Source of the DNA: Persicaria tinctoria
Taxonomy: Eukaryota; Streptophyta; Magnoliopsida; Caryophyllales; Polygonaceae
DNA: 64,000 bases
Reading direction: 5' to 3'
Assembly: GCA_037127255.1 (NCBI GenBank)
Contig: JBANSL010000004.1
Coordinates: 14,887,967 to 14,951,966 of the forward strand
In this document: positions 33,258-53,722 of the stretch, one piece after another
How the letters are laid out: every line of letters starts with the position of its first letter
Position numbering within the stretch: the first letter of the stretch is position 1
Notes under the pieces: generated by a model
Database searches by the model: none
Told to the model about the DNA's origin: nothing
What the model saw: only the letters and a program-made list of their open reading frames with translations
Made by a program: the position numbers and the translations under genes

Positions 33258-33320
33258 AAGCTATCATTCGCGCCTTAGGTAGTCAGATCTCACTTTTTCT
33301 TTGAGCTACTTTACAGGTGT

Positions 33321-34570
33321 ATGTGCCGTTCTGGTCAACCACCTGAGTTTGACGGCTTAGACGAACCAGAGCGCCTTCTACACATCAGAGTTCAACTACA
33401 AAGAGAAATGGCAACCGCTGAAACACAGGAGCAGCTGATTGCAAGGCTTACAAGGGAATTGGCCGCTAAAAATGTTGATATCGCCACTTAGAAAGCAGCA
33501 AGGGAACAAGCGGAGGCTGAGCTTGCCCAATACCGGAACCACGACAGAGGATTATATGCACCCAACTCTCGTCGTGCCTGAATCAGCGATTCTTATCCCG
33601 GAAAACTCTTTTGAAATTTGCACTCAATTCCTTATAGAGCTTAAAAATAATGCCTTTTTTGGTAGATTTAATGAGTGTCATCTTGAACATATTACAAAAT
33701 TTTCTGACATGTGTCATACTCTTGCTGAAGGTACAACTTTGGAATATGTCAAGATGAAGGCTTTTCGTTGGTCTCTCGCTGGACCTGCACTGAAGTGGCT
33801 TGAAGGGCTGAAACCAAGGTCCCTCACAACATGGGCCCAAGTAGAGCAAGAGTTTCTGAACAAATTCTTCCCTCCTGCAAAGACAGCACTCCTCCGCCAG
33901 AAAATCACCGCTTTCAAACAAAATCCTAGGGAACCGCTGGCAAAGGCATGAGAACGCTACAAGGAACTGCTACGATCTTGCCCTACTCATGGACAGCCAC
34001 CCTACGTCATTCAGGAGATCTTCTTCAACTCTCTTGATCAAGTCACTAAGGACAGAATCAACCAGTATACTCGCTATGAGTATTTGACGATGCCACCAAT
34101 TGACGCATGGGGCGTGCTCGACAAGCTCACTAACTACGACAACAAGTATGGGTCTACTGCAAACTATGAAGAGAACCCATATGCCAGGCCAGCACCATCT
34201 ATGCCACTCTATGAGCCAGCAAACGAGATTGACCCAAATGTCAGGGAGCAGTTCTACAGAGACCAGAATCACAAGCTCCTTAAACAAGTCAAATACTTAT
34301 CTGTCAACCAGCCTTGCATAGAATGCGGATCACAGCGGCACACCACTACTAAGTGCCCACACAGAGCAAGTCAAGCTGGGAGAACACCACGAAGAGGTAG
34401 CTTATGTAGGGGGTCCCAATCGTTACATGGGGGACCAAAGGTTTCATCAACCACAATGGAACCAAGATGCCCCTAGGAACCCCCCGCCCTACAGAGCTCC
34501 AGGACATCCGGAAAGAGAACAGAAAAGGGATGATATACAAATAGTCTTGGAGGAAATACGGAGGAAACAC
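33321..34570 (+). pseudogene. Athila-like gag of C2 (broken)
   Basis: From ATG at 33321 (MCRSGQPPEF) a helical N-terminus runs to a stop near 33489. The capsid part lies in another frame (33560-33951): FGRFNECHLEHITKFSDMC, FRWSLAGPALKWLEGLKP, TTWAQVEQEFLNKFFPPAKT. It stops at a TGA (33949) where relatives have a Trp codon. After this come LLRSCPTHGQPPYVI and the zinc knuckle CIECGSQRHTTTKC (34315-34356). A shift near 34380 precedes the last part (VGGPNRYMGDQRF). Gag forms the particle and packages RNA. The multiple breaks indicate a dead copy. Confidence 0.85.
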
Positions 34571-34609
34571 TCATAAACTAAGCAATCCTTCAACTTCGTC
34601 TACACTCAG

Positions 34610-35711
34610 ATGCAAGGTGTCAACTCTAGGCTTGGGGAAATTGATATATGGCGAAAATCAGTTGATACACAGATTGGTCAGCTAGCAGCAGGAATCCCCA
34701 GACAGTCAGGTGCGCTCCCTGGATCTTCAGAACCAAATCCTAAGGGAAAGATTGGACACATCGCTGATGTAAAACTCAGAAGCGGCCATCAACTGCAAGA
34801 GCCAGAAGTTGGAAAGCAGCAAAATGAAGGAGAGTAGCAAGTCGACTAGAGCTTGGTCGATCTCGAGGAGGGCCTGCTTGATCTCTCTCGAGGAGAAAAT
34901 ACATAAACCATCGTCTGCACTGCACATCAACTCGACATCACCCAATCTGGTCGAGATCGACAAAGGTGTACTCGACATAGAGGACGGTCAGCCCGAGATC
35001 GAGAGAACTGCAGCACCTCCGACGTCTGTTCTGGCTCCAAATCAGAAAAAGAAGCCGCCTTTCCCCACAAAATCTCCAAAGGACCCGGCAGAAAAGAAAT
35101 TTCAGCGCTTCATCAAGATGCTTCAGAAACTCAATGTCACTATCCCCTTCACATAAGCTCTCAATGAAATGCCATCCTATGTCAAGTTCCTGAAGGAGAT
35201 TCTGAGCAAAAAGCGATCAATGGCTGAGATTACAAAGGAGTGCAGCCATTTGGACATATTGGAGAAGAGGCCAGATCCAGGTAAGTTTGCTATATCCATT
35301 GGATTTGGTCCATATAAAATTAATGCCTTATGTGATCTTGGAGCTAGTGTGAGCATAATGCCTTTAACAATTTGGTCCAAGATTAAGATAGGTGCCCTAG
35401 AGCCTGTGGATGCTAGACTTTACATGGCCAACTACACAGTGGTCATTCCAACAGGCATGGTGAACAATGTGCCAGTACAAGTAGGTAAATTCTTTGTCCC
35501 TGCTGATTTCCTAGTTGTTGATATGCAAGAAGATCCTGCTTCTCCAATTATTCTAGGAAGACCCTTCTTGGCGACGGTAGATGCCAACATAAGCGTAAGG
35601 AAAGGAGTACTCACCTTCAACATCAGCGATGAGGTAATTGAGTATTCATTTAATAAAACTGAAAGGCATACAGGTCCAATGGAAGAGGTAAAATCTATCT
35701 CAGCTGGCTAA
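34610..35711 (+). pseudogene. Athila-like protease region of C2
   Basis: The first piece (34610-34837) has TQIGQLAAGIPRQSG and a LRSG motif, the Athila gag-protease linker, then a TCGA-rich insert (34838-35000). The protease proper (35169-35711) opens MPSYVKFLKEILSKKRS and has the active-site region ALCDLGASVSIMP (about 35326-35364). FFVPADFLVVDM and IILGRPFLATVDANI follow. DLGA is the usual Athila form of the aspartic protease site, and the domain itself is uninterrupted. A TAA at 35154 separates it from the linker. Its normal role is cleavage of the polyprotein. Confidence 0.88.
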
Positions 35712-35879
35712 ATCACCTACGGGGAACCCAAGGTAAGAAATATGACCCCTAAGGAGCTGGAAAAGAGGGAGATGGAGGCCCAGGTGGAGGAGATCATGGC
35801 AATCTAAAAGGAGGACACAGAGAATCCAATAGACACAAACCAAGGTACGTCGTTATGGACTAACTAATTTTCGGATACC
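35712..35879 (+). other. Post-protease linker of C2, not open
   Basis: Stops at 35709, 35805 and 35865 break this short link (PKELEKREMEAQVEEIMAI). The same linker occurs twice in the right-end mosaic (62221-62340 and 63540-63660), where the second half is open. Confidence 0.6.
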
Positions 35880-36569
35880 TTGACAAAAACCAAGTATGGG
35901 GTCAAGATCGACCAAGACTCCTCGACATCGAAGACCCTAGTCGATCTCGACCAAAACCAGAAGCCCCCACCAGCACCAGCATCGTCGAGCAGCAACACTG
36001 AAGCGCTAGGCTCCTCGATCTCGAGTAGGGTACTCGGGATCGACCACCCCTCTGCTGCCTCGACTTCGCCTTCCTCGACGCTGACTCCACCAGACAGCAA
36101 AGACTACCCGAGATCGACCAAGCTTGTCGATGTCGACCACCACCTTGCTGGCCCAGCTCCTGCATCCTCGAGCAGCTCACCACCAGAAGCTGAAACCTCA
36201 TCGAGATCGAGTACCCCTACTCGAGATCGACCAAACACTGTGGTCCCCGATTCCGTCTCTGCGAAGGTAAGCCAAGGTATGGATATTTCTTCCCCTATTT
36301 CCATTAAAGATCTATCTATACATGGGAGAGGTTTGCCTTGGTATGTACGCTTATGTAGGATATCCAATGATGAGCCTAAGGAGTATGAAGTTGGAGACAA
36401 GCTCTATGTATCTAAATCAAAAGATCATTGGTTCCCTAACAAATTCAACAAGAAGAGGATGGGACCTTTTGTGGTGAACAAGATCCACTCTGGAGGATTA
36501 CAGCTGATGGACAAGAATGGAGTCTTATTTGAGGCCCAAGCTACATGGGCCCTGCAAATGCCACCTTGA
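35880..36569 (+). CDS. C2 ORF: TCGA-encoded linker joined to an integrase-C-terminus-like domain
   Basis: 229 codons, intact. Residues 1-130 are Ser/Pro/Asp-rich (VDLDQNQKPPPAPASSSS and VDVDHH) and are encoded by repeated TCGANNTCGA-type DNA with decamers about 19-20 bp apart (35902, 35922, 35941). Residues 160-229 resemble the C-terminal part of gypsy integrases: EYEVGDKLYVSKSKDHW, then FNKKRMGPFVVNKIHSGGL. In place of RT, RNase H and the integrase core there is only this linker. It may be a deletion product or a retained small protein. The fact that it stayed open while gag decayed is noteworthy. Confidence 0.6.
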   Translation: MTKTKYGVKIDQDSSTSKTLVDLDQNQKPPPAPASSSSNTEALGSSISSRVLGIDHPSAASTSPSSTLTPPDSKDYPRSTKLVDVDHHLAGPAPASSSSSPPEAETSSRSSTPTRDRPNTVVPDSVSAKVSQGMDISSPISIKDLSIHGRGLPWYVRLCRISNDEPKEYEVGDKLYVSKSKDHWFPNKFNKKRMGPFVVNKIHSGGLQLMDKNGVLFEAQATWALQMPP

Positions 36570-38331: not shown

Positions 38332-38803
38332 TCGATCTAGAGTAAAGTCTACTCGACCTCGACGACGGTGTCCGAGCACAGGCCTTGTCGACCAAGAGCA
38401 GTGTCGAGAGCTGGATCAACCCGACTCCGGAGACCCCACTCGATCTCGAGTACTACTTGTCGAGATCGACCACGCCTAGACACCATGTCCAGAGTCGAAA
38501 AGTTGAGACAAGTCGAGAAGCCGAAGACGAAGAGGCCGAGCCAACTCTACTCTATCTCGAGTACAGCTAGTCGAGATCGAGGACCACCAGCGCCCAGTCT
38601 GAAGCCATGCCGAGGAGGAGTCCTCGACATCACTAGCGAGCCATCCTCGGCCACACCCAACTCGATCTCGAGTTATCCTTGTCGAGATCGAGGAGGCAAG
38701 GAGCACCAGTCCGAGCCTTGTCGAGCAGAGCTACCCGACCAAGCCAGCCAGCCCAAGTCGACGCCAGTCCTACTCGAGATCGACTAGCCCTAGTCGAGAT
38801 CGA
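38332..38803. promoter_or_regulatory. Five TCGANNTCGA pairs in U3 of C2
   Basis: Pairs start at 38332/38353, 38440/38460, 38551/38571, 38662/38682 and 38774/38794. Spacing within pairs is 20-21 bp. Units are 108-112 bp apart. In most pairs the first site is TCGATCTCGA and the second TCGAGATCGA, so each pair is an inverted repeat. The DNA between sites varies far more than the sites. Confidence 0.65.
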
Positions 38804-39077
38804 CGAGCGCCGTGTCCAAAGCCGCGTAACGCGGTTTTGCTGTCCTACACGGTTTGGGAATCCTTGGAGCCAAAGGAATCCGAGATATCCGAGATTCATC
38901 AAGTTCTATCCTTGGAAGAGAAGATCTATCAATAAGAAGACATCTTACCTATTTTAGATTTATCTTTTCCTTTTAGATTTAATTCCTAAATTGCTTTTAT
39001 TTATCTTTTAAAGTTTTAGATATAATTTTAGATATAGATAGATATATTCTATCATTGATTAACAAGGAATAGAAGGC

Positions 39078-39084
39078 TATAAAT
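39078..39084 (+). promoter_or_regulatory. TATA box of the C2 3' LTR
   Basis: TATAAAT in GAAGGCTATAAATAAAGCC, conserved with the other LTRs. Confidence 0.72.
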
Positions 39085-39715
39085 AAAGCCTTAGGGGCTA
39101 GTTTTTCATTCATTCAATTCCAGACATAATTCCATTCAAGTAAGTAGGAGTAGAGAGAGGAAGTTTGTGGCGAGCAAGGTGGAAAGGCGAAAGCGGATTT
39201 GTCTTGTTGGTTGTAAGCTTTCTTTATTTAATTCAATGCAAGTTAGTTTCTTCTGTTATTTAATGTCTTTCTTGATGATGATGAGCGAGTAGTCCACCCA
39301 CTTCTGGGGCTGGGGTGAGCCCGACGGTGGCCATGTGAGGTGATGCGGTAAAGGTCAGATCTTTTTATGCAATTCGTCTTCTATCCCTATGAGCATGATT
39401 CTTTTGCGAGAGTTGAAGGCGATCCTTGTTTGTATTATTGAAGCGAAAGTTATCTTAATGCAACTTGGATTAATTATGTGAAAAGGGTTAGTAACAATTA
39501 GGGTTTATGCGAAAGCCTCTATATGCCTATTTGTTAGTAACGAAAGTTATTTTGATGGAAAGCATGATCTTTTATGCCTTTATGTATTACTTTGCATGGT
39601 TATCGTTGTGGCATTGATACCCTGACTTTGGAAGTTCTTTCATTAATTGATTTATTTATGTCTAAATTCTGAATTCTGTGTTGGAATTTGCAATTTACAA
39701 CTTTCTGAGTTTCTG

Positions 39716-39968
39716 TCGATCTAGAGGAGAAGCTTGTCGAGATCGAGTACAACCTTAGTCGATCTCGAGTAGGGTCTTGTCTGTATCGAGTTGAGTTTCT
39801 GTTTCTGTTTTCGATTATGCAATTTCTGTTTCTGCTACTTCTTGTCGATCTCGAGTTAGGTGTTGTCGAGATCGAGTTGCCCTTGATGGGTTTGCTGTCT
39901 GCTGTGATTTCTGAGTTTCTGTTGTCCAGTTCTGTTGTCGATCTCGAGTTACTACTGGTCGAGATCGA
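39716..39968. promoter_or_regulatory. TCGANNTCGA pairs in U5 of C2
   Basis: Sites start at 39716, 39737, 39759, 39845/39866 and 39938/39959, with 21-22 bp spacing and alternating TC and GA centres. This is downstream of the promoter, in sequence otherwise unrelated to the U3 units. Confidence 0.6.
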
Positions 39969-40197
39969 GTTAGCTTCTGTCTTTGCTTTGTTCTTTGCTT
40001 TCATTTGTTATTTCTGTCTTTCTTTCTTTGTTCCTTTATTTCTGTCTTCTGTTTGCTTTTCTGTAAGATTTACAGCTGCCTAGGATCCGCTGACACGCTT
40101 CCTCCTGGATTCGATCCTGACTTTCTCTTACTGCATTGGAGGAGTCTTGTAATTATTTGCTGGGGCACAAATATGGTTTGAGTTATTTCATTATATT

Positions 40198-40258
40198 TCA
40201 TACTCGATTTCCTCCTCACAACATATATATATATATGTTGTGAGGAGGAAATCGAGTA

Positions 40259-40261
<3 letters not shown>
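40198..40261. repeat. Perfect 64-bp palindrome at the C2 LTR end
   Basis: The LTR end (CATACTCGATTTCCTCCTCA then CAACA, 40199-40223) is followed by 12 bases of alternating TA and then its exact reverse complement (40236-40260). The spacer is itself self-complementary, so the whole is one uninterrupted inverted repeat. It would extrude as a cruciform or hairpin. Confidence 0.93.

Positions 40262-40342
<81 letters not shown>
40261..40342. repeat. (AT)n microsatellite
   Basis: About 80 bp of uninterrupted AT dinucleotides, ending in ATGTATGTATG. It joins the palindrome and, with the TATATAT at 31751-31757, marks the AT-repeat target of C2. Confidence 0.95.
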
Positions 40343-40353
<11 letters not shown>

Positions 40354-41028
40354 AGTTTCCGTTTTGTTTTTCAATTTTTGTTTAGTTTAGAGCAATTTAA
40401 ACCCCTGATGAAAAGCACTAGTAAATCCAGTTATCTATTTGATGTGATTTTTTATGTGCGTTGATATATGTTGGGTTGATGAGGGTAAGGAGAATAAAAT
40501 TCACTTACACCGCTCGGGGATGATAAAATTCACTCGAGTGAAAAGAATCATCAATAAACCAATATTCGAGGAGAATAAAATTCACTCAACACTATAAGAA
40601 TTGAGAAAAAAATACGGTTAGTAACCGATCTTGTTTGTGGAGAATAAAATTCACGCAAGGAGGAAGAAAAAGTGTTTAGAGAAACAAAGAAATAAAGAAA
40701 AAATAATGTGCTTTAATGAAACACCGAAATAGAAAAGGACTAGTAATCTATGGGTGTTGATGACGATTTTTAAGCGTGCTTCATGAATTTGATTGCTCAA
40801 TACATTCTGAATGCTAGCATCCCCTGAACCTAATCGGAGTTTAAAGAAATGAGTATTAAGGGTTTGGTGTGGGTCTCATAGTGTCATAATTATTTTGATC
40901 ATAACGTAATAAACACTCCCGTAGCCATGACACCTATACTGATGAGTGATCTTTCATAGAAATTTCTTTGAGTCTCTTGTCTTTCTTTTAGAGTCTGTCT
41001 TTGCTTTGTCTTTAGTTTGCTTGAGGAC
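40343..41028 (+). other. Internal 3' region of element A with a repeated motif
   Basis: No ORF of note. GGAGAATAAAATTCAC or close variants occur at 40489, 40518 (GGATGATAAAATTCAC), 40570 and 40639, at uneven spacing. The end TTTGCTTGAGGAC joins, across element D, to AAACAAAAGTCTAAGCATTG at 47310, just before the 3' LTR of A. Confidence 0.65.
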
Positions 41029-41392
41029 TGTTGTGAACCTAATTTGCCATGTTTTACACTTAATTTTATATCGATTTCTGCATGCATTTCATACATTTTT
41101 GTTAGAATAGTACAGAATCTGTGTAGTTTACACTTATTTGGAATATATGGAGGTCTACACAAGTTTTTGTTATATTTCGCAGAAATCGGACGCACTTTGG
41201 GCTAAGTATGGTGCAGCTGGAGAAAAAGCCATTTTTCACCATTCTTCATTCTGAATCAAGCTTTGATGTCTTCATGAGAGTTGTAGCCCTCGGAAAGAGC
41301 TTTCCAACGCATGGTCATATGCATCAATCCGACAAACGAGGACTCAGGAAAGTGCGTTTCAAGAACAGAGCAGAAAACTGAGAAAACTTTAC

Positions 41393-41843
41393 TCGAGATC
41401 GAGTACACTCTACTCGAGATCGGCCAAAAGTGCCTGGTCGAGGACGGAACTGATCGAGAAGCCGAAGACGAAGACAGACCGGGTTACACCCTACTCGAGA
41501 CCGAGTAGACCTACTCGAGATCGAGGAGCCCAGAAGCCGTGTCCGAGCATGTCGAGCAGAGTCACCCGAGAAGACCTAGTCGACAAGGCCAGTCTAGTCG
41601 AGATGGACAAGGGGTCCTCGATATCGACTAGACCCTTGAGCCAGAATCCGAGCCTGTCGAGCAGAGAAGCCCAGCCAGCCAAGTCGATGATCCACCCTAC
41701 TCGAGATCGAGGAGCTCTCCTCGAGATCGACGACGACCAGGATTCAAGTCCGAGTCTGTCGAGCACTAGCTAGCCGAGACGCCGAGCCACACCAGTCGAC
41801 TGACAATCCTACTCGAGATCGAGTAGACCTTTGTCGAGATCGA
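41393..41843. promoter_or_regulatory. Five TCGANNTCGA pairs in U3 of D (5' LTR)
   Basis: Pairs start at 41393/41414, 41495/41515, 41598/41618, 41701/41721 and 41813/41834. Spacing within pairs is 20-21 bp; units are 102-112 bp apart. Nearly all sites are TCGAGATCGA, with a few variants such as TCGAGACCGA and TCGATATCGA. Confidence 0.65.
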
Positions 41844-42103
41844 GGAGACTTCCAGAGACGCGTTACGCGGTTTGACGCAATTCTACTCGGTGTGGGATTA
41901 CTTGGGCTCGAAGTTTGCCGAATTCCATCCAATCTATCAAGATACATCATGGAAGGAGAAGATCTATCCACTTGAAGACAGTTTAGATATAATTCCCTAT
42001 TTAGATTTAATTCCTTTATTGTTTTTATTTATCATTAAGCTTTTAGATATAATTTTAGATATAGATAGAGATTTTTATCCTTGATTAGCAAGGATTAGAA
42101 GAC

Positions 42104-42110
42104 TATAAAT
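42104..42110 (+). promoter_or_regulatory. TATA box of the D 5' LTR
   Basis: TATAAAT in GAAGACTATAAATAAAGCCC. Confidence 0.75.
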
Positions 42111-42186
42111 AAAGCCCTAGGGGCTGATTTTCATTCATTCAAGCAAAGCCGTCTTAGGGCGCAAGGAGAGAGGAGAGAGGGAGGAG

Positions 42187-42190
<4 letters not shown>

Positions 42191-42237
<47 letters not shown>
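42191..42237. repeat. (AG)n microsatellite in the D 5' LTR
   Basis: About 47 bp of AG repeats downstream of the TATA box, so it would lie in the transcript leader. The 3' LTR copy (46511-46566) is longer. Confidence 0.95.
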
Positions 42238-42240
<3 letters not shown>

Positions 42241-42977
42241 GGAAGCGAGAGAGGAGAGAGAGGAGGAACGTTTGGAAGGTTTTGTAAGTTTTAGTTTATT
42301 TTATGTCAAAGTTAATTTCTTTCATCATGTTTGCTTTCTAATTTTTCTTCTTCTAGGGTTGGGGTGATCCCAACATAGATATGTTTGTTTGATTTATGAA
42401 TTCATGATTTTGTGTGTCTTTATTATCATCTACCTTTGTGCTTAATCCTTTGCGACAGTCGAGGACAATTCCTTATTTGCAATTATGAAGCGAAAGTGAA
42501 CTTATTATGATTTGGATAGTAATTAGGCTTTGCCTGCGAAAGTTAGTTGATCCTAATTAAGAAAAGGTAGTAACACTTAGGGTTTATGCGAAAGCCTCTA
42601 TATTCCTATTTGTTAATAACGAAAGTTATTTGATATAAAGCATGCATCTTTATGTGATTTATGATCTGCACATATGTTTATTGTTGTGGTGATTCCTAAC
42701 CTTGGAAGTTTGCATCTTTATTTATTTTATTTCATTATTTTTATCCTGCAAAGTTACCCGACACCGACCACCTCTTCTTCTATCATTCCCTCGACATCGA
42801 CCAACTCTTAGTCGACATCGACAACAACCTCCCCACCTTTTCCCGATATCCCTGAACTCCATAACACACTAAACCTAGAACCGCTGACTTCTCTCCTGAG
42901 GACGAACCTGACTCCCCTATACTATAGCGGGGGTCTTGACTACAAATTTATTTGGTCGAGAAACCCTCTCGTCAAAT

Positions 42978-42995
42978 TGGCGCCGTTGCCGGGGA
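42978..42995 (+). promoter_or_regulatory. Primer-binding site of D, tRNA-Asp
   Basis: TGGCGCCGTTGCCGGGGA, an exact complement of the 3' end of plant tRNA-Asp(GUC). Confidence 0.93.
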
Positions 42996-43163
42996 GATAT
43001 CAATCGCGCCTAGTTTAATTGTGTTTAAGGTTCAGAAAGGCCCATCCCTTTTTCTTACCCTTCACATACCCTACCACCACCTACCTCACCGGTACCAACT
43101 GGGTGCCAAGCTTTTACCACTAATTTGTGTTCTTGATTGTGATTTCAAAGCTTAGGTACAAAG

Positions 43164-43892
43164 ATGGAAGACTTTGTCGAAGGGAATCCTGCATGGGAAG
43201 AATGGTATCAAGATTTGAGACGGAGAAATAGGATCGCAGTGGAGGAGTCACGATTAAGGGAAATAGCTCGGTTGGAAGACGAAATCCGAAGGCTTGAGGC
43301 TTCCATTCAGTCTAAAGGACCATGCCCTCCTCTCGACGAGCCAATTGACCCACTCAATGTCGACAACCAGGTATGTCCTTCCTCGAATTTCATTCCTACT
43401 TTGCTACCTATTGTTGATGAATTATGTGAAGGATCCCACGGCGAAATAGCACTAGAAGAGAAGAAGTTGGACATTGTTGACCAGGGCATTCCAAGATCAC
43501 TTTTACCTTACAAGGTGAAGGCTATCCCCGATGATTTTGAGCAACCGATGTTCATATTCAAGTATGGGGTCCTAGCAAAGTGGCATGAAGCTCCGCATGA
43601 TGAGGTGGAAATATCTCTTCCCACTCCACTGTTTTGCTGTAGTGGAGACGCGCAACCAAGTCAACCTGTGAATTGGAAGAGGTATGATGATGAGGTATGT
43701 ATATTTTCTTTATATCTTCCTTTATGCATGCCAACTGGAGCACATGAAGATGGATGGGTGGAGCCATGGAGCGTCCACTCGGGGAGGTTTAAACTTCTTC
43801 ACATGATGCCCCCGGATGACATCCCACGCTTCCCACCACCGGAGGAACCACCAGATCCACCTATACCTCTGGACAAAGATGAACCAGGCTAA
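43164..43892 (+). CDS. D ORF, 242 codons, conserved with the C1 ORF, function unknown
   Basis: Intact from ATG at 43164 (MEDFVEGNPAWEEW) to TAA. Residues 25-52 form a charged helix, probably a coiled coil (REIARLEDEIRRLEASI). From residue 110 the protein follows the C1 protein closely: SLLPYKVKAIPDDFEQPMF, FKYGVLAKW, EAPHDEVEISLPTP, YDDEVC, EPWSVHSGRFKLLHMMPPDD, and a Pro-rich tail ending KDEPG. The N-terminal halves differ in length and sequence. No known domain was recognised. It is the only coding capacity of D. The two elements have different LTR subfamilies, so the ORF has been kept over the time the LTRs diverged. Confidence 0.77.
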   Translation: MEDFVEGNPAWEEWYQDLRRRNRIAVEESRLREIARLEDEIRRLEASIQSKGPCPPLDEPIDPLNVDNQVCPSSNFIPTLLPIVDELCEGSHGEIALEEKKLDIVDQGIPRSLLPYKVKAIPDDFEQPMFIFKYGVLAKWHEAPHDEVEISLPTPLFCCSGDAQPSQPVNWKRYDDEVCIFSLYLPLCMPTGAHEDGWVEPWSVHSGRFKLLHMMPPDDIPRFPPPEEPPDPPIPLDKDEPG

Positions 43893-45308
43893 TGCTTAAT
43901 GAAGAAGTCGGCCTAGCGACTATAAAATCTAGAGTTTGTAAATAGACATTTATTTTTGGGACTTTTGGACATTGTTGGTTTTGGTTGTCTTTGGTTTTGA
44001 ACATTTTTAGTTTTTCTATTATGGGTATATGTCTTCTGCACTTTTCAGGTCCATGGATAAGCTATATTCAGACTCGGCCCAGACGGTTCCTATTATTCAA
44101 AATTGAGAGGCCCTGCACACCTGTCTAGTGAGTTTCTTTCTTTACCCTTGTTTTTATACAGTGAGGCCACTATAATGTTTAAGTATGGGGTGGGGGAAGG
44201 GCTTACTTCATGCACATTTGACATTATTTGTGCAAATTTGAAATTCATTTCTTGAATTGCTTATACATGTTTTCCAAAGTTTATAAAAATGACCCCCATT
44301 GAAATTTTTGAATAATGTCATGGAAGCTTATATTGAACTCGACGATGCAAAATTGGATTCATTAGAGATATAGCATGAAATTGCCTAGTAAAAGGAAGTC
44401 ACAATGAAGTGCATTATTTTTATTGAAAACCATGAAAGGAGGTAAAATTTGAAGTTGCTTTTGACATGTTGCATGATAAGAGGATGGAGGACTTTATATT
44501 TCCATATAATGCTCAGTGTTATAATCCTAGCCTTACCTATGCTTATGCATCACAAAAAAGCCATAATATGTCTTATTTCAAATATTGCTCCACATGATCT
44601 AAATATTTGCCATTCTTTACCTTATTTCCTATCCGGGGATTATGTTGAGAATGATGTTACATTATGGAGATTGTTATATGGTTGTTGTGTTTATCATTAT
44701 TGGAGTTTGGAAGGAAATTGTTTGAATTATATGGAAAATTTAATGAGTGAAAGAAAATCCAATCATCTCAGGAGATAAAGGTAGATTGACCCTGCTCTCT
44801 AAGATAATAGTTTGGAGAGATGGGACACATTGTGAGGAGTCCAAAGCACTAAGTATCCGGGGCCATTCATGACACCCATGTTTTCGACTCGCGAGAAGGC
44901 AGTGCTGAGGTTAGAGAGGTAAAAGCATTATTATGAATAGAAGCAATATGAAAGGTGATGAATCTTATGGAGAAGGAATGTGGAAATTCAGTTTGGAAAT
45001 ACTCCATTTCCCCGGATCATTAGCACCACATTGCCAAAAATTGCCCACCTTTTAGCCTTTTACCAATCTACTCCTTAAACTCCTCTTGATTATTAATTTT
45101 TTGTCACTTATGAATGTTTTTGCATAGCCCGCCTTTTGTGAGTAGATGTTGCTCTTTAAATTGCACATGCATGGATCTGTGACATTAGTACCTTTTCAAG
45201 GATGGTAATTGACTGCTGGGTTATATGAGAATGAATCTAAAATGTTGAGAGTTTTGAATTCTTCGCCTGAATGACAATTAAAAGTATTGCTTGAGGACAA
45301 ACAAGCTT
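43893..45308. other. Conserved 3' noncoding region of D
   Basis: Parallel to C1 and C2: GTCGGCCTAGCGACTATAAA, TATGGGGTGGGGGAAGGG (44184), ATCCGGGGCCATTCATGACA, GACTCGCGAGAAGGCAGTGC. The polypurine-like AAGTATGGGGTGTT is at 45309-45322. Confidence 0.72.
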
Positions 45309-45322
45309 AAGTATGGGGTGTT

Positions 45323-46506
45323 TGTTGTGAACCTAATTTGCTATGTTTTACACTTAATTTTATATCGATTTCTGCATGCATTTCATACATTTGGGTTAGA
45401 ATAGTACAGAATCTGTGTAGTTTACACTTATTTGGAATATATGGAGGTCTACACAAGTTTTTGTTATACTTCGCAGAAATCGGACGCACTTTGGAGCTTA
45501 AAGGAAACTCATGGAGAGGCTAAGTATGGTGCAGCTGGAGAAAAAGCCATTTTTCACCATTCTTCATTCTGAATCAAGCTTTGATGTCTTCATGAGAATT
45601 GTAGCCCTCGGAAAGAGCTTTCCAACGCATGGTCATATGCATCAATCCGACGAACGAGGACTCGGGAAAGTGAGTTTCAAGAACAGAGCAGAAAACTGAG
45701 AAAACTTTACTCGAGATCGAGTACACTCTACTCGAGATCGACCAAAAGTGCCTGGTCGAGGACGGAACTGATCGAGAAGCCAAAGACGAAGACAGACCGG
45801 GTTACACCCCACTCGAGACCGAGTAGACCTACTCGAGATCGAGGAGCCCAGAAGCCGTGTCCGAGCATGTCGAGCAGAGTCACCCGAGAAGACCTAGTCG
45901 ACAAGGCTAGTCTAGTCGAGATGGACAAGGGGTCCTCGAGATCGACTAGACCCGTGAGCCAGAATCTAAGCCTGTCGAGCAGAGAAGCCCAGCCAGCCAA
46001 GTCGATGATCCACCCCTACTCGAGATCGAGGAGCTCTCCTCGAGATCGACGACGCCCAGGATTCAAGTCCGAGTCTGTCGAGCACTAGCTAGCCGAGACG
46101 CCGAGCCACACCAGTCGACCGACAATCCTACTCGAGATCGAGTAGACCTTTGTCGAGATCGAGGAGACTTCCAGAGACGCGTTACGCGGTTTGACGCAAT
46201 TCTACTCGGTGTGGGATTACTTGGGCTCGAAGTTTGCCGAATTCCATCCAATCTATCAAGATACATCATGAAAGGAGAAGATCTATCCACTTGAAGACAC
46301 TTTAGATATAATTCCCTATTTAGATTTAATTCCTTTATTGTTTTTATTTATCATTAAGCTTTTAGATATAATTTTAGATATAGATAGAGATTTTTATCCT
46401 TGATTAGCAAGGATTAGAAGACTATAAATAAAGCCCTAGGGGGCTGATTTTCATTCATTCAAGCAAAGCCGTCTTAGGGCGCAAGGAGAGAGGAGAGAGG
46501 GAGGAG

Positions 46507-46570
<64 letters not shown>

Positions 46571-47304
46571 GGAAGCGAGAGAGGAGAGAGAGGAGGAACG
46601 TTTGGAAGGTTTTGTAAGTTTTTGTTTATTTTATGTCAAAGTTAATTTCTTTCATCATGTTTGCTTTCTAATTTTTCTTCTTCTAGGGTTGGGGTGATCC
46701 TAACATAGATATGTTTGTTTGATTTATGAATTCATGATTTTGTGTGTCTTTATTATCATCTACCTATGTGCTTAATCCTTTGCGACAGTCGAGGACAATT
46801 CCTTATTTGCAATTATGAAGCGAAAGTGAACTTATTATGATTTGGATAGTAATTAGGCTTTGCCTGCGAAAGTTGGTTGATCCTAATTAAGAAAAGGTAG
46901 TAACACTTAGGGTTTATGCGAAAGCCTCTATATTCCTATTTGTTAATAACGAAAGTTATTTGATATAAAGCATGCATCTTTATGTGATTTATGATCTGCG
47001 CATATGTTTATTGTTGTGGTGATTCCTAACCTTGGAAATTTGCATCTTTATTTATTTTATTTCATTATTTTTATCCTACAAAGTTACCCGACACCGACCA
47101 CCTCTTCTTCTATCATTCCCTCGACATCGACCAAGTCTTAGTCGACATCGACAACAACCTCCCCACCTTTTCCCGATATCCCTGAACCCCATAACACACT
47201 AAACCTAGAACCGCTGACTTCTCTCCTGAGGACGAACCTGACTCCCCTATACTATAGCGGGGGTCTTGACTACAAATTTATTTGGTCGAGAAACCCTCTC
47301 GTCA
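45323..47304 (+). repeat. 3' LTR of D
   Basis: 1982 bp. TATA at 46423-46429 and AG repeat at 46511-46566. Followed by the target duplication AGGAC. Confidence 0.94.
45711..46162. promoter_or_regulatory. Five TCGANNTCGA pairs in U3 of D (3' LTR)
   Basis: Pairs start at 45711/45732, 45813/45833, 45916/45936, 46020/46040 and 46132/46153, matching the 5' LTR array. Confidence 0.65.
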
Positions 47305-47309
47305 AGGAC

Positions 47310-47336
47310 AAACAAAAGTCTAAGCATTGGGTAGTT
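47310..47336 (+). other. Last internal bases of element A before its 3' LTR
   Basis: AAACAAAAGTCTAAGCATTG then GGTAGTT. The purine-rich TAAGCATTGGG is the best polypurine-tract candidate of A. It aligns with the pre-LTR end of C1, C2 and D (CTTAAGTATGGGG), which suggests A and those elements are distantly related. Confidence 0.6.
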
Positions 47337-48567
47337 TGATAGGGTCTATTTTAGTCGTGTTTTAAGAATAGATTTGCATATTAATTTAGAGCATTTTTAT
47401 ATATTTTAGAGGTTATTCTGTATTATTTAGTTTTCGGAGTGTAAACTAGTATTTTTATATATTTCAGGTATATATCTTCAAGCTGGATCCTATGAATTTG
47501 TAGGTTGATCCTAAATTGTGGGATTATTTTGCAAATTAATTAAAAGGCTAGAAGGGCTAGCTCGGATCGTATATGGGCTGATTGTGTGCCTTATGCAGAG
47601 ATGCGGCTCCGGGTGGCAACGGCTTGCATCTCAACACTTCTTTTCAAGTTTGACCATATATTTAGAATTAGATAGAATTAGTTAGATATTAATATTATAT
47701 ATCGATATATCTATACTAGGATAGATAGATTAGGATAGGTTTTATATTTATATATACATTCATAAGGAGGCCGAACATAAGGAGGCCGACTACTGTTTCC
47801 CACCATTAACCCTAATTATGTTTTGTCTTATTTTTATGAAGATCTAAACTCTTCCGTTTCGTCTACGATTTGAAGCTTTATTTGGATTGATTGTGAGTTT
47901 CTAATTCTTGTTCCTTCTTTCCTATATTGAATGTTTCGACTTTTTTGTGCTTGAATGTTTGATTGTTTTATTCTATCTCGACGGATCAACTTGGTAGAAT
48001 CAATTCAATTGCTAGGGTTTTGTAGATTCCTGATTGTCAACCTTAACCCAAGTGGCAAACTTATCCCTTTAGGGCTGATTGAACTAATTGGATGTGTATG
48101 AAGTTGGATGTGTTGTTACATCTCTCTTTAGAGACTGCAAATACCATGGTTAATCTCTGAACTTAAAGCTATCGATTAGGTTAAATCCTTCTTTAGGGAA
48201 TGTTCGATTGATAAGGGTTTCTAGGACTGATTGGACTAGTAACTATCTTAGGTCGGGACAAGGGCATTCATAGGAAACCTAAAAGGACGAGAAGAAGTTA
48301 CAAGGATCGTTTCACCCAAATAAAGTGGAAATTTGTAGATGAAACTATCTTATTAATCGTTATCTCTATCAATTTGTTTATAGTTTATTTTATTTTCTTT
48401 CTTATTTTCACCACCAAAAAACCCCCGTTTGATACTAATTGGTAAATAAACTTAAATTAGGAATAAATTGATTCTCTGTGGGATCGACTCGTTCTTACCA
48501 CACTACATTAGTTAGGTAGGTTCGAATTTATTTTGATACGGTTTACGCAACTAAAAATCATCCATCA
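47337..48567 (+). repeat. 3' LTR of element A
   Basis: 1231 bp, starting TGATAGGG and ending CATCCATCA. It is followed by TTAGT, the target duplication matching 12259-12263. Confidence 0.94.
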
Positions 48568-49240
48568 TTAGTCACAAAGGAAATTGAAGTCGTTACTAGG
48601 TAATCTCTAGCGTATTCCATGCGAATGAGAGTCCTACCTAAGGCAATCTCCAGCGTCTTTGAGCGCTAAAGAGATTGAATTGAAAATTAGGTAATCTCCA
48701 GCATATGATACATGAAGGAGAGACAATCTCCAGCGTCCTTGGACGTTTAAGGGGATCGAATTGAGAATTGGGTAATCTTCAGCGTACTCTACTCAAAGGA
48801 GATACCTACTTAATAAACAATCTCCATCATCTTTGGACGTGAAGGACATCAGAGTGAGAATTAGGTAATCTCCAACGTACTCTACGCGAAGGAGAGACCT
48901 ACTTAATAAACAATCTCCAGCGTCCTCAGACGTTAAGGAGATCAAATTTGAGAATTAGGTAATCTCCAACGTACTCTACGTGAAGGAGAGACCTACTTAA
49001 TAGACAATCTCCAGCGTCCTCATACGTTAAGGAGATCAAATTTAAGAAATGGGAAATCTCCAGCGTACTCTACGGGAAAGAGAGACCGACTTAATAAACA
49101 ATCCCCAGCGCCTTTGGACGCGAAGGAGATCAAATAGAGAATTAGGTAATCTCCAGCATACTCTACGCGAAGGAGAGACCTACTTAATAAACAATCTCCA
49201 GAGTCCTCAGACGTTAAGGACTTATTTGTCAATATCATTG
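48568..49240. repeat. Tandem repeat, about 93-bp unit of two related halves (Tat element 3' region)
   Basis: About six to seven units. Each has AATCTCCAGCGTCCTCAGAC, then AGGAGATCAAA, then a second AATCTCCAACGTACTCTACG half, and ACCTACTTAATAAAC. Unit starts fall near 48725, 48820, 48911, 49004, 49099 and 49192. A related half-unit (GATCTCCAGTGTTTCGTTAGT) lies at 12243-12263, so element A inserted within this array. Such arrays are typical of the region between pol and 3' LTR in Tat elements. Confidence 0.9.
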
Positions 49241-49423
49241 TAAAGGGAACACTGGCAACATGAACCTAGGAAGGTTTTTTTTTTTGCTTGAACTACATTT
49301 GAGTGCATAAAATAAAGACACTGCTTATCGAACTACTGTTGAGACTTAGTGGAAGTCGTTTGATGCTAGTACGTCTTATCCATCATCATAAATCTCTTCC
49401 TCGATGTCATAGCTCTCCTTGTC

Positions 49424-49738
49424 TCAAAAATGGACTTCAAACCTTGCTTCGCCAAAGTGGGTGAAAACTATTGATGTTTCCAACTCAAGGTCGTGCGTCT
49501 CGACAAAGTCTCTCCACCCGCGCGCCACCTAGTGAGATCCGTAAGCGCCTCCTGTGATATGAACAGGGAAATCTTTTACGATGCGGATGGATAAAAGGAT
49601 TTTCTCAGGTACCTGGGGCTGAAAGTGTTCGCCAAAGCAGTACGGTAATATCATGCGTATGTATTGCTCGTCCCCTACTAGGTAGATATCGAAAACAATG
49701 AGATTGTTTGGATTTTGATCCATGGTATTAGTTGCCAC
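49424..49738 (-). pseudogene. B3-like domain, sense strand of the Tat element, one stop, no intron
   Basis: From ATG (49738) it reads FDIYLVGDEQYIRMILPYCF, then VPEKILLSIRIVKDFPVHI. A stop at about 49530 follows, then ARGWRDFVETHDLELETSIV and GEARFEVHF to the stop at 49424. This has the B3 layout with an intact GW-x-x-F box. The positions where plus-strand copies have an intron (between YIRM and ILPY) are continuous here. The single stop and otherwise long frame suggest moderate age. Confidence 0.62.
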
Positions 49739-49923
49739 GTCTCTTGTTTTGCAAGCGTTTGTTTTTTGTTGATGAGGTCGTGCCTTTCATATCTAGGAAA
49801 TGCCCTTTTATAGTGGCATAGGGAGGTTTGGTCCGAATATTCTTGTGATAAATGACTGTTTCCTGATTTGAAAGGCTCCAGTGGACTTGGTCGGGTTTTG
49901 AAGAGATTCTTGCCATGTGTAGT

Positions 49924-51134
49924 TGATAGAGCATATTTAGTGTTGCATAATAGATTGCATTTAGCATTATTTATGTGTGAATATTGCATTTATCTAGTTG
50001 AATTTGCATTTTCACTTGTTGAGTAGAAGAGGCGGAATCTACATGATTTTATGTTTTATTTCAGGAAAAGTAGATTGGTGGTGAATTAATATTGAAAGGA
50101 CGGAAACAAGTTGAAGAATACTTAGGAGCTGCTGGAGACGAAGAGGAAGCAGCTCGGAAGAATCGCAGGCCACCCTACGACATTGCTAGCCGCCCCGCGA
50201 CTCGAAGGAAGAAACGAGGAACTTCGCTGATCGCCGGCCGCCCCGCGGCCTGGCCTGGCCGCCCCGCGGCCCGTGCAGTAGCTGATCGTCAATTCCGGAT
50301 TTTACTTAGGGTTTTATTATGTTATTTTGGGCCGAATTTCTCTAGACTATTTTAAGGCTTTTCTAGTTATTTCGTTCATTCACCTTATGCACTTTACACC
50401 ATTGTTGAGAGCGCCGTTGAGCATGAGCAACTAAACTCTCGAGGTTTCGCCTACGATTTGGATCTTTGATTGTTGAATTGTGAGTTTCTTAATCTAGTTC
50501 TTATTCCTATTGCAATGTTTTGACTTCCTTGTGCTTAATTGCTTGAATGTGTTTTATTCTCTCTGGCCTGGCCGACTAGTTAGAGTAGATTCATTCAATT
50601 GCTAGGGTTTTGTAGATTCCTCGTAGCGAATCCTAACCCAAGTGGCAATCATATCCCTTTAGGACTCATAGGACTAATTGGATGTGTTGGAAGTTGAATA
50701 CATGTTGAATATCGACTCGTAGCTTGATATTATATGTACCTTGGCTAATTCATAATCTTAATGCTATCTCTAGGTTGAATCTTAACCGTGTTAGGGTTAT
50801 TTAGAGATAAGGGTTGCTAGGACTCGTAGGACTAGTAATTTACCTAAGATTTGGACAAGGACATTGATAGAAAAAGACAAGAACTAGAGGCTGAAACAAG
50901 GATCGAATTCATCAATCGAAGTGATAAATTGTAGGTGAACCTATTTCCCTCCACTGAATTATAAAATCAATTTACTTTGTTTGCTTGCTTCTGCTTTGCT
51001 AAAAGGCAGATCTTTTCACACTAAAAACTCCCCCTTTTCTCTCTTAGCAATTATAATTAGACTTGAATTTAATAGATTTCCCTGTAGATCGATCTCTTGC
51101 TTGCACGCTATACTAGTTAGTAAGTTTGAGTATT
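49924..51134 (+). repeat. Solo LTR in the Tat element (relative of the 15685 solo LTR)
   Basis: It starts TGATAGAGCATATTTAG. Blocks shared with 15685-17100 and with LTR A include ATTGCTAGGGTTTTGTAGAT and ATACTAGTTA near the end. The ten bases CATGTGTAGT occur directly before (49914-49923) and after (51135-51144), longer than the usual 5 bp. The right end lacks a clear ...CA, so the exact 3' end is uncertain. A GC-rich block at 50157-50275 repeats GCCGCCCCGCG three times. Short ORFs inside are incidental. Confidence 0.75.
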
Positions 51135-51144
51135 CATGTGTAGT

Positions 51145-51324
51145 CCATGCGGAATATCCTGGGAAATCTCGATTTCAGACTTCCCTCCTTGTTCAACGCA
51201 TGCAATAAATGCCTTTGTCGATTTTCAAGGTTTGCACAACTTTATTTCGTATAAAAAAAAGGGTTGTGTTTGTAGCAATTTTTTTTTATCTATTTGTTGT
51301 TTACTAATATTGCTTGGTAGAGAG
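51145..51324. other. Tat-element spacer before a B3-like gene
   Basis: About 180 bp of AT-rich sequence leading to the ATG at 51325. No feature recognised. Confidence 0.5.
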
Positions 51325-51660
51325 ATGGTGCCTCCCAACTCTGAGATGCAAGATTTTTACCGCTGTGTTGACGTAGAGGGAAGGCTTGTTGTGAGCTGAA
51401 TCTGCCATGTTTTACAGTTACTTTTATATCGTTTTCTGCATACATTTCATGCATTTGGGTTAGAATAGTACATAATCTATGTAGTTTATGTTTATTTTCC
51501 AAATTATGGAATCTACACCGGTTTCTGTTTAAATTCGCAGAATTCGAAGCAATTTACAGCAGTTCTGAGAAAGGTTGGAAAAGCTCGGAAATCAACTACA
51601 GAAGTCCAAAGTCAAAGAAGCAGCGGAACCAAGATGAATCAAGCTGGAGCCCAGAGTTAC

Positions 51661-52139
51661 TCGATATCGAGTTCTTTTACTCGATATCGACAAAGGTGTC
51701 CGAGCAGTGGTGATCGAGTAGGAGCTGATCGAGGAAGCTGAAGACGAAGGCAACCCAACTCCGGAGCTTTACTCGATATCGAGTAAGCTACTCGATATCG
51801 ACAAACACCCTGATGCCATACCCGGAGTCGAGGAGTTGTGCCAAGTCGAGAAGCCGAAGACCTGGAGACGCCGAGCACCAGTTACTCGATATTGAGTAAA
51901 CTACTCGATATCGACAAGATCAACAACGCCTGTCCGAGCCAGTGTCGGGGAAGGGTTACTCGACCAAGCCCAGCGACACAGAAGTCGACAGAGCTTACTC
52001 GATATCGATGAAAGTTGTCGATATCAAGGACCCCAGAACCACATGCCGAGTCAGATCGAGGACCTGCTACCCGACACCACCGAGCCAGCTGAAGTCGACG
52101 TCATTTTTACTCGATATCGAGTAGTTTAGTCGATGTCGA
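51661..52139. promoter_or_regulatory. Five TCGATATCGA pairs in U3 of the solo LTR
   Basis: Pairs start at 51661/51681, 51773/51792, 51886/51905, 51999/52018 and 52111/52130. Spacing within pairs is 19-20 bp. Units are 112-113 bp apart, which is strikingly regular. Eight of ten sites are TCGATATCGA or differ from it by one base. The DNA between sites is only loosely similar from unit to unit. Confidence 0.68.
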
Positions 52140-52418: not shown

Positions 52419-53722
52419 AAAGCCTTAGGGGCTGGTTTTTTATTCATTCAATTTTTCAGAGATACAAGTAGTTACACATAGAGAGAGAAGGAGAAGAGGT
52501 TGTAAGTTTGAGTTTATTAATGCAAGTTAGTTCTTTTTCATCAAAGATGTCTGCGATTGCGATGAAGAGCGAGTAGTCCACCCACTTCTAGGGTCGGGGT
52601 TAACCCGACGATGGCCATGTAAGGTAATGCGGTAAAAGTACAATCTTTTTATGCAATTCGTCTTTTATCCCTATGAGCATGATTCTTTTGCGAGAGTTGA
52701 AGGTGATCCTTGTTTGTATTATTGAAGCGAAAGTGATCTTAATGCAACTTGGGTTAATTATGTGAAAAGGGTAGTAACAATTAGGGTTTATGCGAAAGCC
52801 TCTATATTCTTATTTGTTAATAACGAAAGTTATTTGATGGAAAACATGATCTTTTATGCCTTTATGTGTTACTTTGCATGGTTATTGTTGTGGTGTTGAT
52901 ACCCTGGCTTTGGAAGTCTTTTAGTTTATTGATTTTATTCACCAAAATCTGAGTTTTGTGTTCGAAGTTTGCATTTTTACAGTTTATGTGTTGTCGATCT
53001 CGGGGAAGTTTTCGTCGATATCGAGTTGGCTTTACTCGATATCGAGGAAGGTTTTACTCGACACTGTGTTTGCTGATTTCTGTTTTTGTTGATCGACATA
53101 GTCTTAGTCGATATCGAGTTACTGTTGTCGATATCGACCAATTTCTGTGTTTGCTTTCTTTTCTGCTTTTTGTCTTCCTTTCTGTCTGTGAGATTTACAG
53201 CTACCTGAGATCCGCTGACACGTTCCTCGTGGATCGATCCTGACTTCCCGCTGCTGCATAGGGAGGGAGTCTTGTAATTATTTGCAAGGGATGAAATCTG
53301 GTTTGCTTTGATTTATTTATATTTAATTGCAAGTCTCAATTTCCTCCTACAACAAGGCTCCATCGCTTGGTAAGATATCCATGCTCGTTGTCCTTTATAT
53401 CTGTTTGGGTTTGAATTCTTATGAAGTAATGCTCTTTTCTTTGCAACCTCTCCCTTGTGCTTTTGAAAGGATGTATGGTCATGTTGTATCCGACCATGTT
53501 TGTTTAGTCTCCTCAACTGGTCAAAACTTTTGTGTTGGGGTTTCCAAGGATTGCTCAAATCGCTGGTGGTTGTCTGAAGGTTGGGGAAGATTTGCAACCA
53601 ATAATGATGTTCGACTTGGAGCATTGATGGTGTTTTTTCAGTACGTGGGAGGGCATCGCTTCAAGACTCTTGTTCTCGAGGATGATCAAGTAGGGCTTTA
53701 TGGTGTTGCGATGATGGTGTAA

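Follow-up and report, generated by a model that had tools for sequence, protein, structure and literature searches.

VANDAL elements of Arabidopsis are DNA transposons that encode an anti-silencing protein, VANC, whose target is a 9-mer in their non-coding regions (PMC5735166). The motifs bound by VANC proteins are short and build up in tandem repeats, and co-evolution of the motifs with the protein has been proposed (PMC5735166, PMC10398659). The Arabidopsis LTR element ONSEN carries a palindromic LTR site, nTTCnnGAAn, for a sequence-specific protein (PMC3907296). The arrays described here share features with both systems, and are found in a superfamily of LTR retrotransposons.

The window, the whole 64-kb stretch of DNA that was analysed (C4:14887967-14951966; assembly size, 1.68 Gb), contains 103 TCGANNTCGA decamers, where shuffles predict 0.88. 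Genome-wide there are 617,165 of these decamers and 43,496 of a reversed control, counts that include related element copies (20,019 protease candidates) and so do not represent independent events. The decamer of the original prediction is thus real, but the site extends over 16 bp, not 10: it is the palindrome TnSTCGAnnTCGASnA. Among 50 distinct 20-bp pairs, the flanks of the left site are T in 88%, S in 94% and A in 92%. The full 16-bp form is present in 404,376 of the 617,165 decamers (66%), compared with 612 of 43,496 (1.4%) in the reversed control. The observation is confirmed, and is larger than first stated. The arrays and related features of the window are listed below, with position 1 as its first letter.

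23979..25120, + strand: arrays in the first LTR of element A; centres mostly CG, CA and TG
25782..25812, + strand: pair within the open reading frame of element A (25529-26356)
28267..29389, + strand: arrays in the second LTR of element A
32751..32982, + strand: U5-side array in the 5' LTR of element C, with one extra site at 31788
33315..36569, + strand: fragmented coding region for gag and protease in element C, where no reverse transcriptase was seen
34857..34960, + strand: two sites of element C in the spacer between gag and protease, placed by tblastn
35922..36230, + strand: coding array after the protease of element C; six sites in three frames
38332..38803, + strand: U3 array in the 3' LTR of element C; five two-site units with a spacing of 20-21 bp, in which TC followed by GA prevails at the centres
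39737..39968, + strand: second array in the 3' LTR of element C, beyond the TATA box on the U5 side; three pairs (six sites) with a spacing of 21-22 bp
41029..42975, + strand: 5' LTR of element D, matching 45323-47305
41393..41843, + strand: U3 array in the 5' LTR of element D; five units, mostly GA centres
42791..42821, + strand: pair near the 3' end of the 5' LTR of element D; CA centres
43164..43892, + strand: D-ORF, a 242-aa reading frame of element D; no Pfam match
45711..46162, + strand: U3 array in the 3' LTR of element D
47121..47151, + strand: pair near the 3' end of the 3' LTR of element D
51661..52139, + strand: U3 array in the solo LTR; five units, TA centres, last site TG
53015..53137, + strand: second array in the solo LTR; TA centres
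60186..63727, + strand: fragments that belong to the same superfamily, with more site clusters

Just ahead of element A lies a 252-bp stretch that is 99% identical to part of its interior, so that its two LTRs may stem from separate insertions, a reservation for the CpG comparison below, which includes this element.

Each of the 15 unit starts originally named in C2, the D 5' LTR and the solo LTR marks two sites 19-21 bp apart with 0-1 mismatch per site. The same is true of the units of the D 3' LTR, which start at 45711, 45813, 45916, 46020 and 46132, and the unit period of 102-113 bp was reproduced. Two positional claims had to be revised. The arrays had been placed just upstream of the TATA box, but in the three LTRs measured they end 261-275 bp upstream of it (41843 to 42104, 38803 to 39078 and 52139 to 52412, read by eye). 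Nor are they restricted to U3, since others occur towards the 3' end of the LTR and within the gag-protease reading frame. Their U3 location upstream of the TATA box in these three LTRs, as for an ONSEN-type site, would suit a host transcription factor that uses the array as an ordinary enhancer, in the manner of HSF on ONSEN, and is exploited by elements that encode no factor themselves. Plant LTRs do recruit host factors, as ONSEN does through nTTCnnGAAn and HSFA2 (PMC3907296). An ONSEN-type site would be confined to the LTR, yet here arrays also occur in coding spacers, besides those near the LTR 3' end.

The paired arrangement recurs throughout the genome. Site pairs at 19-21 bp number 222,217 (about 74,000 per spacing; control, 72), of which 110,830 are exactly 20 bp apart (control, 4). 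All spacings from 24 to 34 bp together hold 3,838 pairs, or about 350 per spacing (control, 444), and a further 32,489 pairs are found at 37-43 bp (control, 567). At the loci examined, a partner stands 18-22 bp away from 315 of the 403 decamers. Among 71 partners with one mismatch, 26 differ by C>T or G>A, a share that gives no clear indication on methylation. Absence of the spacing from other copies of the family, which had been named as grounds for rejecting the prediction, is not what the genome contains. Distances between clusters are also periodic. After similar gaps had been collapsed (141 to 120), gaps of 31-140 bp gave a resultant of 0.45 at a period of 10.1-10.2 bp, a value reached by none of 2000 jittered sets. 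At distances of 130-300 bp the best fit is 9.2-9.3 bp (0.33), with 10.5 bp poorer (0.25), and over 60-400 bp a period of 9.4 bp (0.32) is marginally ahead of 10.3 bp (0.31). Helical phasing of clusters is therefore moderate and short-range, up to 140 bp.

The original proposal, in which proteins bind cooperatively along one DNA face, is well supported at the level of sequence by the palindrome, the two-turn spacing with a near-empty zone beyond it, the 10.1-10.2 bp gap period, the conservation of the fixed site letters but not of the centre, and the occurrence of the word in three reading frames; the 9.2-9.3 bp fit at 130-300 bp is the counterpoint. The decamer would be the core of a 16-bp palindromic site, T-n-S-TCGA-nn-TCGA-S-n-A, for a symmetric dimer on double-stranded DNA. 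Two dimers would be neighbours at a distance of about two helical turns, and as the next pairs tend towards whole-turn distances, the proteins may touch along one DNA face. That the array binds a protein of this kind is, on these grounds, very probable.

Selection might instead act on RNA, with each pair folding into a hairpin that serves packaging or dimerisation of the element transcript. Where the centres are not palindromic, pairs are indeed often inverted, converging (YC..GR) in 46,568 cases and diverging in 8,212, and the inner flanking S letters lean towards complementarity (75 of 118, p = 0.019). The letters on the outer flanks disfavour complementarity (34 of 125, p = 3e-7), a loop would need neither a 19-21 bp spacing nor a 10-bp period between clusters, and direct GA..GA pairs are retained in element D. 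We regard an RNA hairpin as improbable, and the double-stranded site as the better account of the pairs.

Conservation was measured in 49 pairs of U3 segments, 65-75% identical, whose alignments could be drawn together by the sites themselves. In these, the fixed site letters were kept in 82-84% of cases (T/A, 2336 of 2780; C/G, 2276 of 2780), the centre letters in 40% (562 of 1390) and the other letters in 46% (12708 of 27856). The TCGA of sites was intact in 855 of 1074 cases, compared with 5258 of 18760 for 109 4-mers tested outside sites. Divergence inside and outside the sites, whose equality would have spoken against the prediction, is thus very unequal. The near-fixed sites of the original description stand up to this comparison; the view that the linkers between them are unrelated does not, because mean linker identity is 43-49%, against 33-36% in shuffles, and the U3 units have the appearance of ancient tandem duplicates that have since diverged strongly. 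Linker identity above shuffles, a 93-bp unit in the coding arrays and pair-sized matches between LTR and internal arrays (see below) are what a decaying minisatellite, or copying of pair modules, could leave behind with no maintenance of the sites. A simple minisatellite would decay equally at all positions of the unit, as the prediction had argued, and this is not observed: the fixed letters far outlive both the linkers and the centre of the same decamer. Such copying would also have to produce a common period across cluster gaps of differing length. An origin of this kind, with nothing maintaining the sites, is very improbable.

We also compared CpG changes between the LTR pairs of six elements. 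CpG had changed in 8 of 126 cases in sites, 7 of 89 in TCGA outside sites and 44 of 267 in other CG. When the sites were set against every other CG, the outcome at first seemed to favour protein protection (p = 0.018, or 0.006 when stratified). CpG decay as a sign of such protection was nevertheless given up: TCGA outside sites behaves like the sites, and the comparison thus gives no clear sign of occupancy.

The arrays in coding sequence are independent of the reading frame. In nine open pieces, 68 coding sites fall into the three frames as 40, 24 and 4, and the decamer is read as V-x-V-x, S-x-S or R-x-R; where the sites of a pair are 19 or 20 bp apart, the frame switches within the pair. These arrays repeat in a regular unit of 93 bp. 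Enrichment of Ser TCG and Val GTC inside coding sites was discarded as evidence, being circular, because the codons were picked by the decamer. Purifying selection acts on the gag and protease parts (dS 0.26-1.4; dN/dS 0.06-0.17, the C-terminal figure of 0.17 resting on one comparison, L031 vs L033). Since the coding arrays lie in an open frame with these selected parts, selection on the protein for Val-Asp or Ser-Thr repeats could be invoked, with the LTR arrays as coincidence. It would have to account for one decamer in three frames and for its presence in LTRs, and its probability is close to nil. A test for a 6-7 residue spaced repeat, corresponding to one frame of the array, was positive in none of 14 gag-protease relatives that a protein search had found, but the same test was positive in only 5 of 8 gag-protease pieces of the superfamily itself and is therefore not fully sensitive.

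The elements resemble a non-autonomous Athila-like element in having Ty3-type gag and protease, no pol and frames under purifying selection. They have no reverse transcriptase, and the Athila label of the superfamily is a putative one, based on general likeness and a primer-binding motif. In the elements read, Pfam matched gag above and protease below the curated cut-off and gave nothing for the D-ORF; no VANC-like DNA-binding protein was found in them. Of 20,019 protease candidates, 150 were scored, and none of these had a pol-sized open frame or one above 1172 aa; at the 150 places scored of 10,635 for the C-terminal part, none exceeded 1146 aa. The D-ORF was considered as the binder and set aside: it has no Pfam match and no solved relative, and its dN/dS between elements A and D is 0.46, a single value. 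By eye, a terminal stretch of a gag-protease relative (P0006) resembles part of the D-ORF. Given this similarity, the D-ORF may be a fragment of a gag-protease polyprotein.

The central dinucleotide of the site varies between lineages, with three centre classes in one genome. In eight of nine elements the leading class is common to the LTR and internal arrays, with one tie; because the classes follow lineages, this agreement is partly descent. Best hits between the LTR and internal arrays of four elements contain matches of 17-53 bp, a length comparable to that of a single site, two sites or one pair. Copying of such modules could also spread a centre. Three coexisting classes, each leading in both LTR and internal arrays, would be unexpected for one fixed specificity, which weakens the case for a host factor; we consider that explanation possible, with the odds somewhat against it.

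The short motif forms dense arrays across the element, and between related families it shifts together across the element, as in VANC-type targets. A VANC-like anti-silencing protein could thus be encoded by a family element, bind the arrays and strip silencing marks from all members. The lineage-specific leading centre common to the arrays of one element is in keeping with this, as are the tandem-repeat accumulation of VANC motifs and their proposed co-evolution with the protein (PMC5735166, PMC10398659). At the 150 + 150 places scored there is neither an autonomous member nor an extra gene with a known DNA-binding domain; in addition, VANC21 is much weaker on motif-lacking coding-region probes (PMC5735166), yet here coding regions bear sites. 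We consider this explanation rather unlikely.

Our preferred reading is that a dimeric protein binds the arrays cooperatively as double-stranded DNA, and that the sites are maintained by selection on the elements and co-evolve with this protein; from the sequence evidence we would give this a probability of roughly 0.65. The sequence itself establishes the site, its spacing and short-range phasing, its conservation, its independence of reading frame and the shared centre; binding by a protein, the role of that protein as activator or anti-silencer, its coding source and co-evolution as the cause of the shared centre are inferences. The retrotransposon superfamily, non-autonomous and Athila-like, has such arrays in U3, towards the 3' end of the LTR and in protein spacers, and the sites would be retained because binding benefits the elements, most likely by opening chromatin and promoting transcription. 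On balance we favour a gain through activation or anti-silencing. When the binder's centre preference shifts in a lineage, the sites across its elements would follow. It is doubtful that the putative binder is encoded by the element family and not by the host. The most specific form of the reading, offered tentatively and as an unlikely whole, is that a family-encoded protein, perhaps from a scarce autonomous member, coats phased palindromes in promoter, LTR end and coding spacers against silencing, and that shifts in its centre specificity drove parallel site changes in each lineage.

Within the scope of our literature search, no title or abstract on arrays, anti-silencing or phasing among the papers listed describes this array, and the matches listed for the decamer strings look, by title, like chance strings in primers or sequence. 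As far as their accessible text goes, PMC5735166 has no word starting with "palindrom" or "spacing", PMC2410132 lacks "tandem" and mentions no site array, and neither PMC11656987 (plant LTR motifs) nor PMC12844716 (sunflower LTR methylation) has "TCGA" at the start of a word. The roughly 400,000 full 16-bp sites make up a very large set of predicted sites for one protein specificity. This cis code is plain enough for the protein to be fished for directly, and bears on how retrotransposons escape silencing in plants. Co-evolution of protein and DNA may have left a natural record in the co-variation of LTR and coding centres, and where arrays override the reading frame they represent unusual DNA-level selection within coding sequence.

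Among known systems, the gypsy insulator of Drosophila is an array of Su(Hw) binding sites inside a Ty3-type element. It is unlike the present arrays in its site, its single cluster and its animal host, and we know of no centre co-variation in it. ONSEN shares the palindromic LTR site for a sequence-specific protein (PMC3907296), but has an element in its LTR and a known host factor, whereas here many phased sites for a predicted factor extend over the whole element. Non-autonomous Athila elements of Arabidopsis are alike in having gag without pol and frames under purifying selection (PMC2410132). The nearest analogue is VANC anti-silencing of VANDAL transposons, with which the arrays share a short motif, dense arrays over a mobile element, an origin in tandem repeats and differences between related families (PMC5735166). 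In contrast to VANDAL, no encoded factor was found in the elements, which are LTR retrotransposons, and their site is a 16-bp palindrome with a strict two-turn spacing that extends into coding regions.

The decamer TCGANNTCGA occurs 103 times in the window, against 0.88 copies expected. The original prediction placed five units in each of three LTRs of one retrotransposon superfamily: the 3' LTR of element C (C2, from 38332), the 5' LTR of element D (from 41393) and a solo LTR (from 51661). All of these units are real, each with two sites 19-21 bp apart and at most one mismatch per site, and five more of the same build, spacing and mismatch limit were placed in the element D 3' LTR. Units recur every 102-113 bp, the range given in the prediction. 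The TATA box lies 261-275 bp downstream of the U3 array end (three LTRs measured, by eye); in both element D LTRs it is followed by a long GA microsatellite (42166-42262, 46486-46592). Further sites are as follows.

39737-39968, second array near LTR 3' end
42791-42821, second array near LTR 3' end
53015-53137, second array near LTR 3' end
34857-36230, further sites in element C, within its internal coding region

The decamer is absent from window bases 1-23978, where a Copia-type reverse transcriptase lies. Offset self-matches revealed two other tandem arrays, with units near 60 bp (54890-55541) and near 93 bp (48597-49220; without the decamer). An AT microsatellite flanked by an inverted repeat lies near the end of an element C LTR (40200-40345).

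Across the 1.68-Gb assembly, a plant's judging by content, where the window sits in contig C4, there are 617,165 decamers and 43,496 copies of the reversed word, our control. Decamer pairs number 222,217 at 19-21 bp (control, 72), 232,757 at 15-25 bp (284), 3,838 at 24-34 bp (444) and 32,489 at 37-43 bp (567), counts that represent related element copies and so no independent events. In the sampled loci, a partner lies 18-22 bp away for 315 of the 403 decamers, and a third site sits inside 23 of 31 pairs at 36-43 bp. Among 10-kb stretches at round coordinates on contigs C1-C7, 7/20 contain a decamer and 5/20 a pair. The letters flanking 50 distinct 20-bp pairs extend the consensus to a 16-bp palindrome, T-n-S-TCGA-nn-TCGA-S-n-A; this full form surrounds 404,376 decamers genome-wide (66%) vs 612 of the 43,496 reversed words (1.4%). 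Where the two variable middle letters (the centre) are the non-palindromic YC or GR, converging dyads (YC left, GR right) number 46,568 genome-wide and diverging ones 8,212; direct-orientation pairs are present too.

Conservation was scored in 136 pairwise alignments of 17 U3 segments, with gaps counted as loss.

Letters kept in U3 alignments, by identity class (pairs): fixed letters; centre; other array letters
50-65% (62): 2188/3124, 2175/3124; 571/1562; 12151/29879
65-75% (49): 2336/2780 (T, A), 2276/2780 (C, G); 562/1390; 12708/27856
75-85% (18): 1021/1192, 1003/1192; 356/596; 6828/11557
85-95% (4): 168/184, 164/184; 71/92; 1198/1624
95-100% (3): 143/144, 143/144; 70/72; 1483/1532

Flanked by fixed letters yet decaying at background level, the centre serves as an internal control. 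CG outside sites was kept in 2111/4108 cases at 65-75% identity. Because sites may pull alignments together, close pairs weigh more. Between sampled locus L029 and the second L030 LTR, 176/176 fixed, 36/44 centre and 548/763 other letters are kept; L007 against the second L018 LTR is a weaker case (112/136, 19/34 and 473/720). Over 33 alignments of 70-90% identity, TCGA was intact in 855/1074 cases within sites and 316/527 outside them (many being half-sites by eye), and 109 4-mers outside sites, TCGA included, each with at least 60 tests, in 5258/18760. A comparison aimed at protection from CpG decay, between the LTR pairs of six elements, found changes at 8/126 CpG within sites, at 7/89 where TCGA lies outside them and at 44/267 other CG, so that sites and remaining TCGA behave alike.

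Neighbouring sites in the sampled loci lie 18-22 bp and then 36-43 bp apart, with zero cases of 23-35 bp; longer distances cluster near 72-74, 84, 93, 104, 112, 123 and 132 bp. For inter-cluster gaps of 31-140 bp the resultant is 0.45 with a period of 10.1-10.2 bp, a value reached by 0/2000 jittered sets. Similar gaps were collapsed, reducing 141 to 120; because this step is crude, the formal p of 2.7e-11 is not literal. Some U3 units fit the phase poorly, for example the first of C2 (108 bp), and at 130-300 bp a period of 9.2-9.3 bp comes out on top (0.33, against 0.25 for 10.5 bp). The phasing effect is moderate in size. At short range it is better explained by one-face contact on double-stranded DNA than by a signal in RNA, and so speaks against an RNA hairpin formed by site pairs. 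We disfavour such a hairpin: the inner flanking letters do lean complementary (75/118), but the outer ones are anti-complementary (34/125 complementary).

Internally the elements encode gag and protease; in sampled locus L031 this reading frame is open for 1091 aa, and Pfam scores gag above and protease below cut-off. Both are under purifying selection (dN/dS 0.06-0.17, dS 0.26-1.4). In L031, arrays occupy two coding spacers, one before and one after protease. In nine open pieces, 68 coding sites fall 40/24/4 into three frames, read V-x-V-x, S-x-S and R-x-R, and the frame switches within pairs 19 or 20 bp apart. The target of selection in coding arrays therefore seems to be nucleic acid, not one peptide. 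L031 and G000:C1:1796393-1821483, in the same assembly, contain head-to-tail copies, ~6.67 kb each, of one gag-protease element; the protease search recovered the 1091-aa frame in four copies of this array.

At 96.7-99.6% identity, the window's matched LTR regions suggest that the elements were recently active. The elements look non-autonomous. A protease query gave 20,019 candidate places, and the 150 scored included no gag-pol-sized frame, the longest (1172 aa) being too short; a C-terminal query gave 10,635, with a longest frame of 1146 aa among 150 scored. In its place, element D has a 242-aa frame (D-ORF, 43164-43892), with 3,645 candidates and about 100 of 150 scored without stops (by eye). 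D-ORF has no Pfam match, and its best relatives are unnamed database proteins (50-92% identity); the C-terminal stretch of P0006, a database gag-protease relative, resembles part of it by eye. Element A may belong to a copy that is tandem or recombined, because its first LTR is preceded by 252 bp of its own internal sequence (23341-23592 vs 27610-27861, 99% identical).

The array looks specific to this superfamily lineage. A V-x-V-x repeat spaced by 6-7 residues occurs in 0/14 database gag-protease relatives, some from named plants, and in 2/5 D-ORF relatives, by a test of partial sensitivity (positive in 5/8 gag-protease pieces of the array-bearing superfamily) that covers one reading frame only. 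A distant gag-protease relative in the same genome (L020:2224-2976, 31% identity) lies in a 10-kb stretch lacking the decamer.

Centre letters divide the elements into classes: TA; YC/GR; and CA, TG or CG. The leading class is common to LTR and internal arrays in 8/9 elements, with a slim LTR lead in L031 (3/7) and a tie in element A (internal arrays 1 to 1). C2 and the solo LTR align at 76% and both retain five units, and all 10/10 centres differ (TC, CC or GA vs TA or TG). Centre classes track lineages, so descent accounts for part of the LTR-internal agreement. In four elements tested there is no long LTR-to-internal homology, and the best matches shown span 17-53 bp in both orientations; copying of a pair-sized module is a possible route for spreading a centre. 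The simplest reading of the co-variation is a shift in one putative trans-acting binder.

Most likely, judging from sequence, the arrays would be bound by a dimeric protein that recognises double-strand DNA and occupies the palindromes cooperatively, and its occupancy would benefit the elements through transcription or anti-silencing. The strongest evidence is the site, the spacing, the centre control and the reading frames. A host factor and a family-encoded factor are about equally likely as the putative binder.

In the literature searched, which mostly excludes subscription journals, no title or abstract found describes such an array. PMC2410132 describes non-autonomous elements for Athila in Arabidopsis, a likeness to the apparently non-autonomous elements here. 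The best analogue is VANC, whose motifs, according to PMC5735166 and PMC10398659, are short, arrayed through tandem repeats and proposed to co-evolve with the protein. We do not class the arrays as a VANC system because no VANC-type protein for them was found in this analysis. Mobile elements with arrayed binding sites for proteins are a known kind; what is unusual here is the size, phasing, extent and co-variation.
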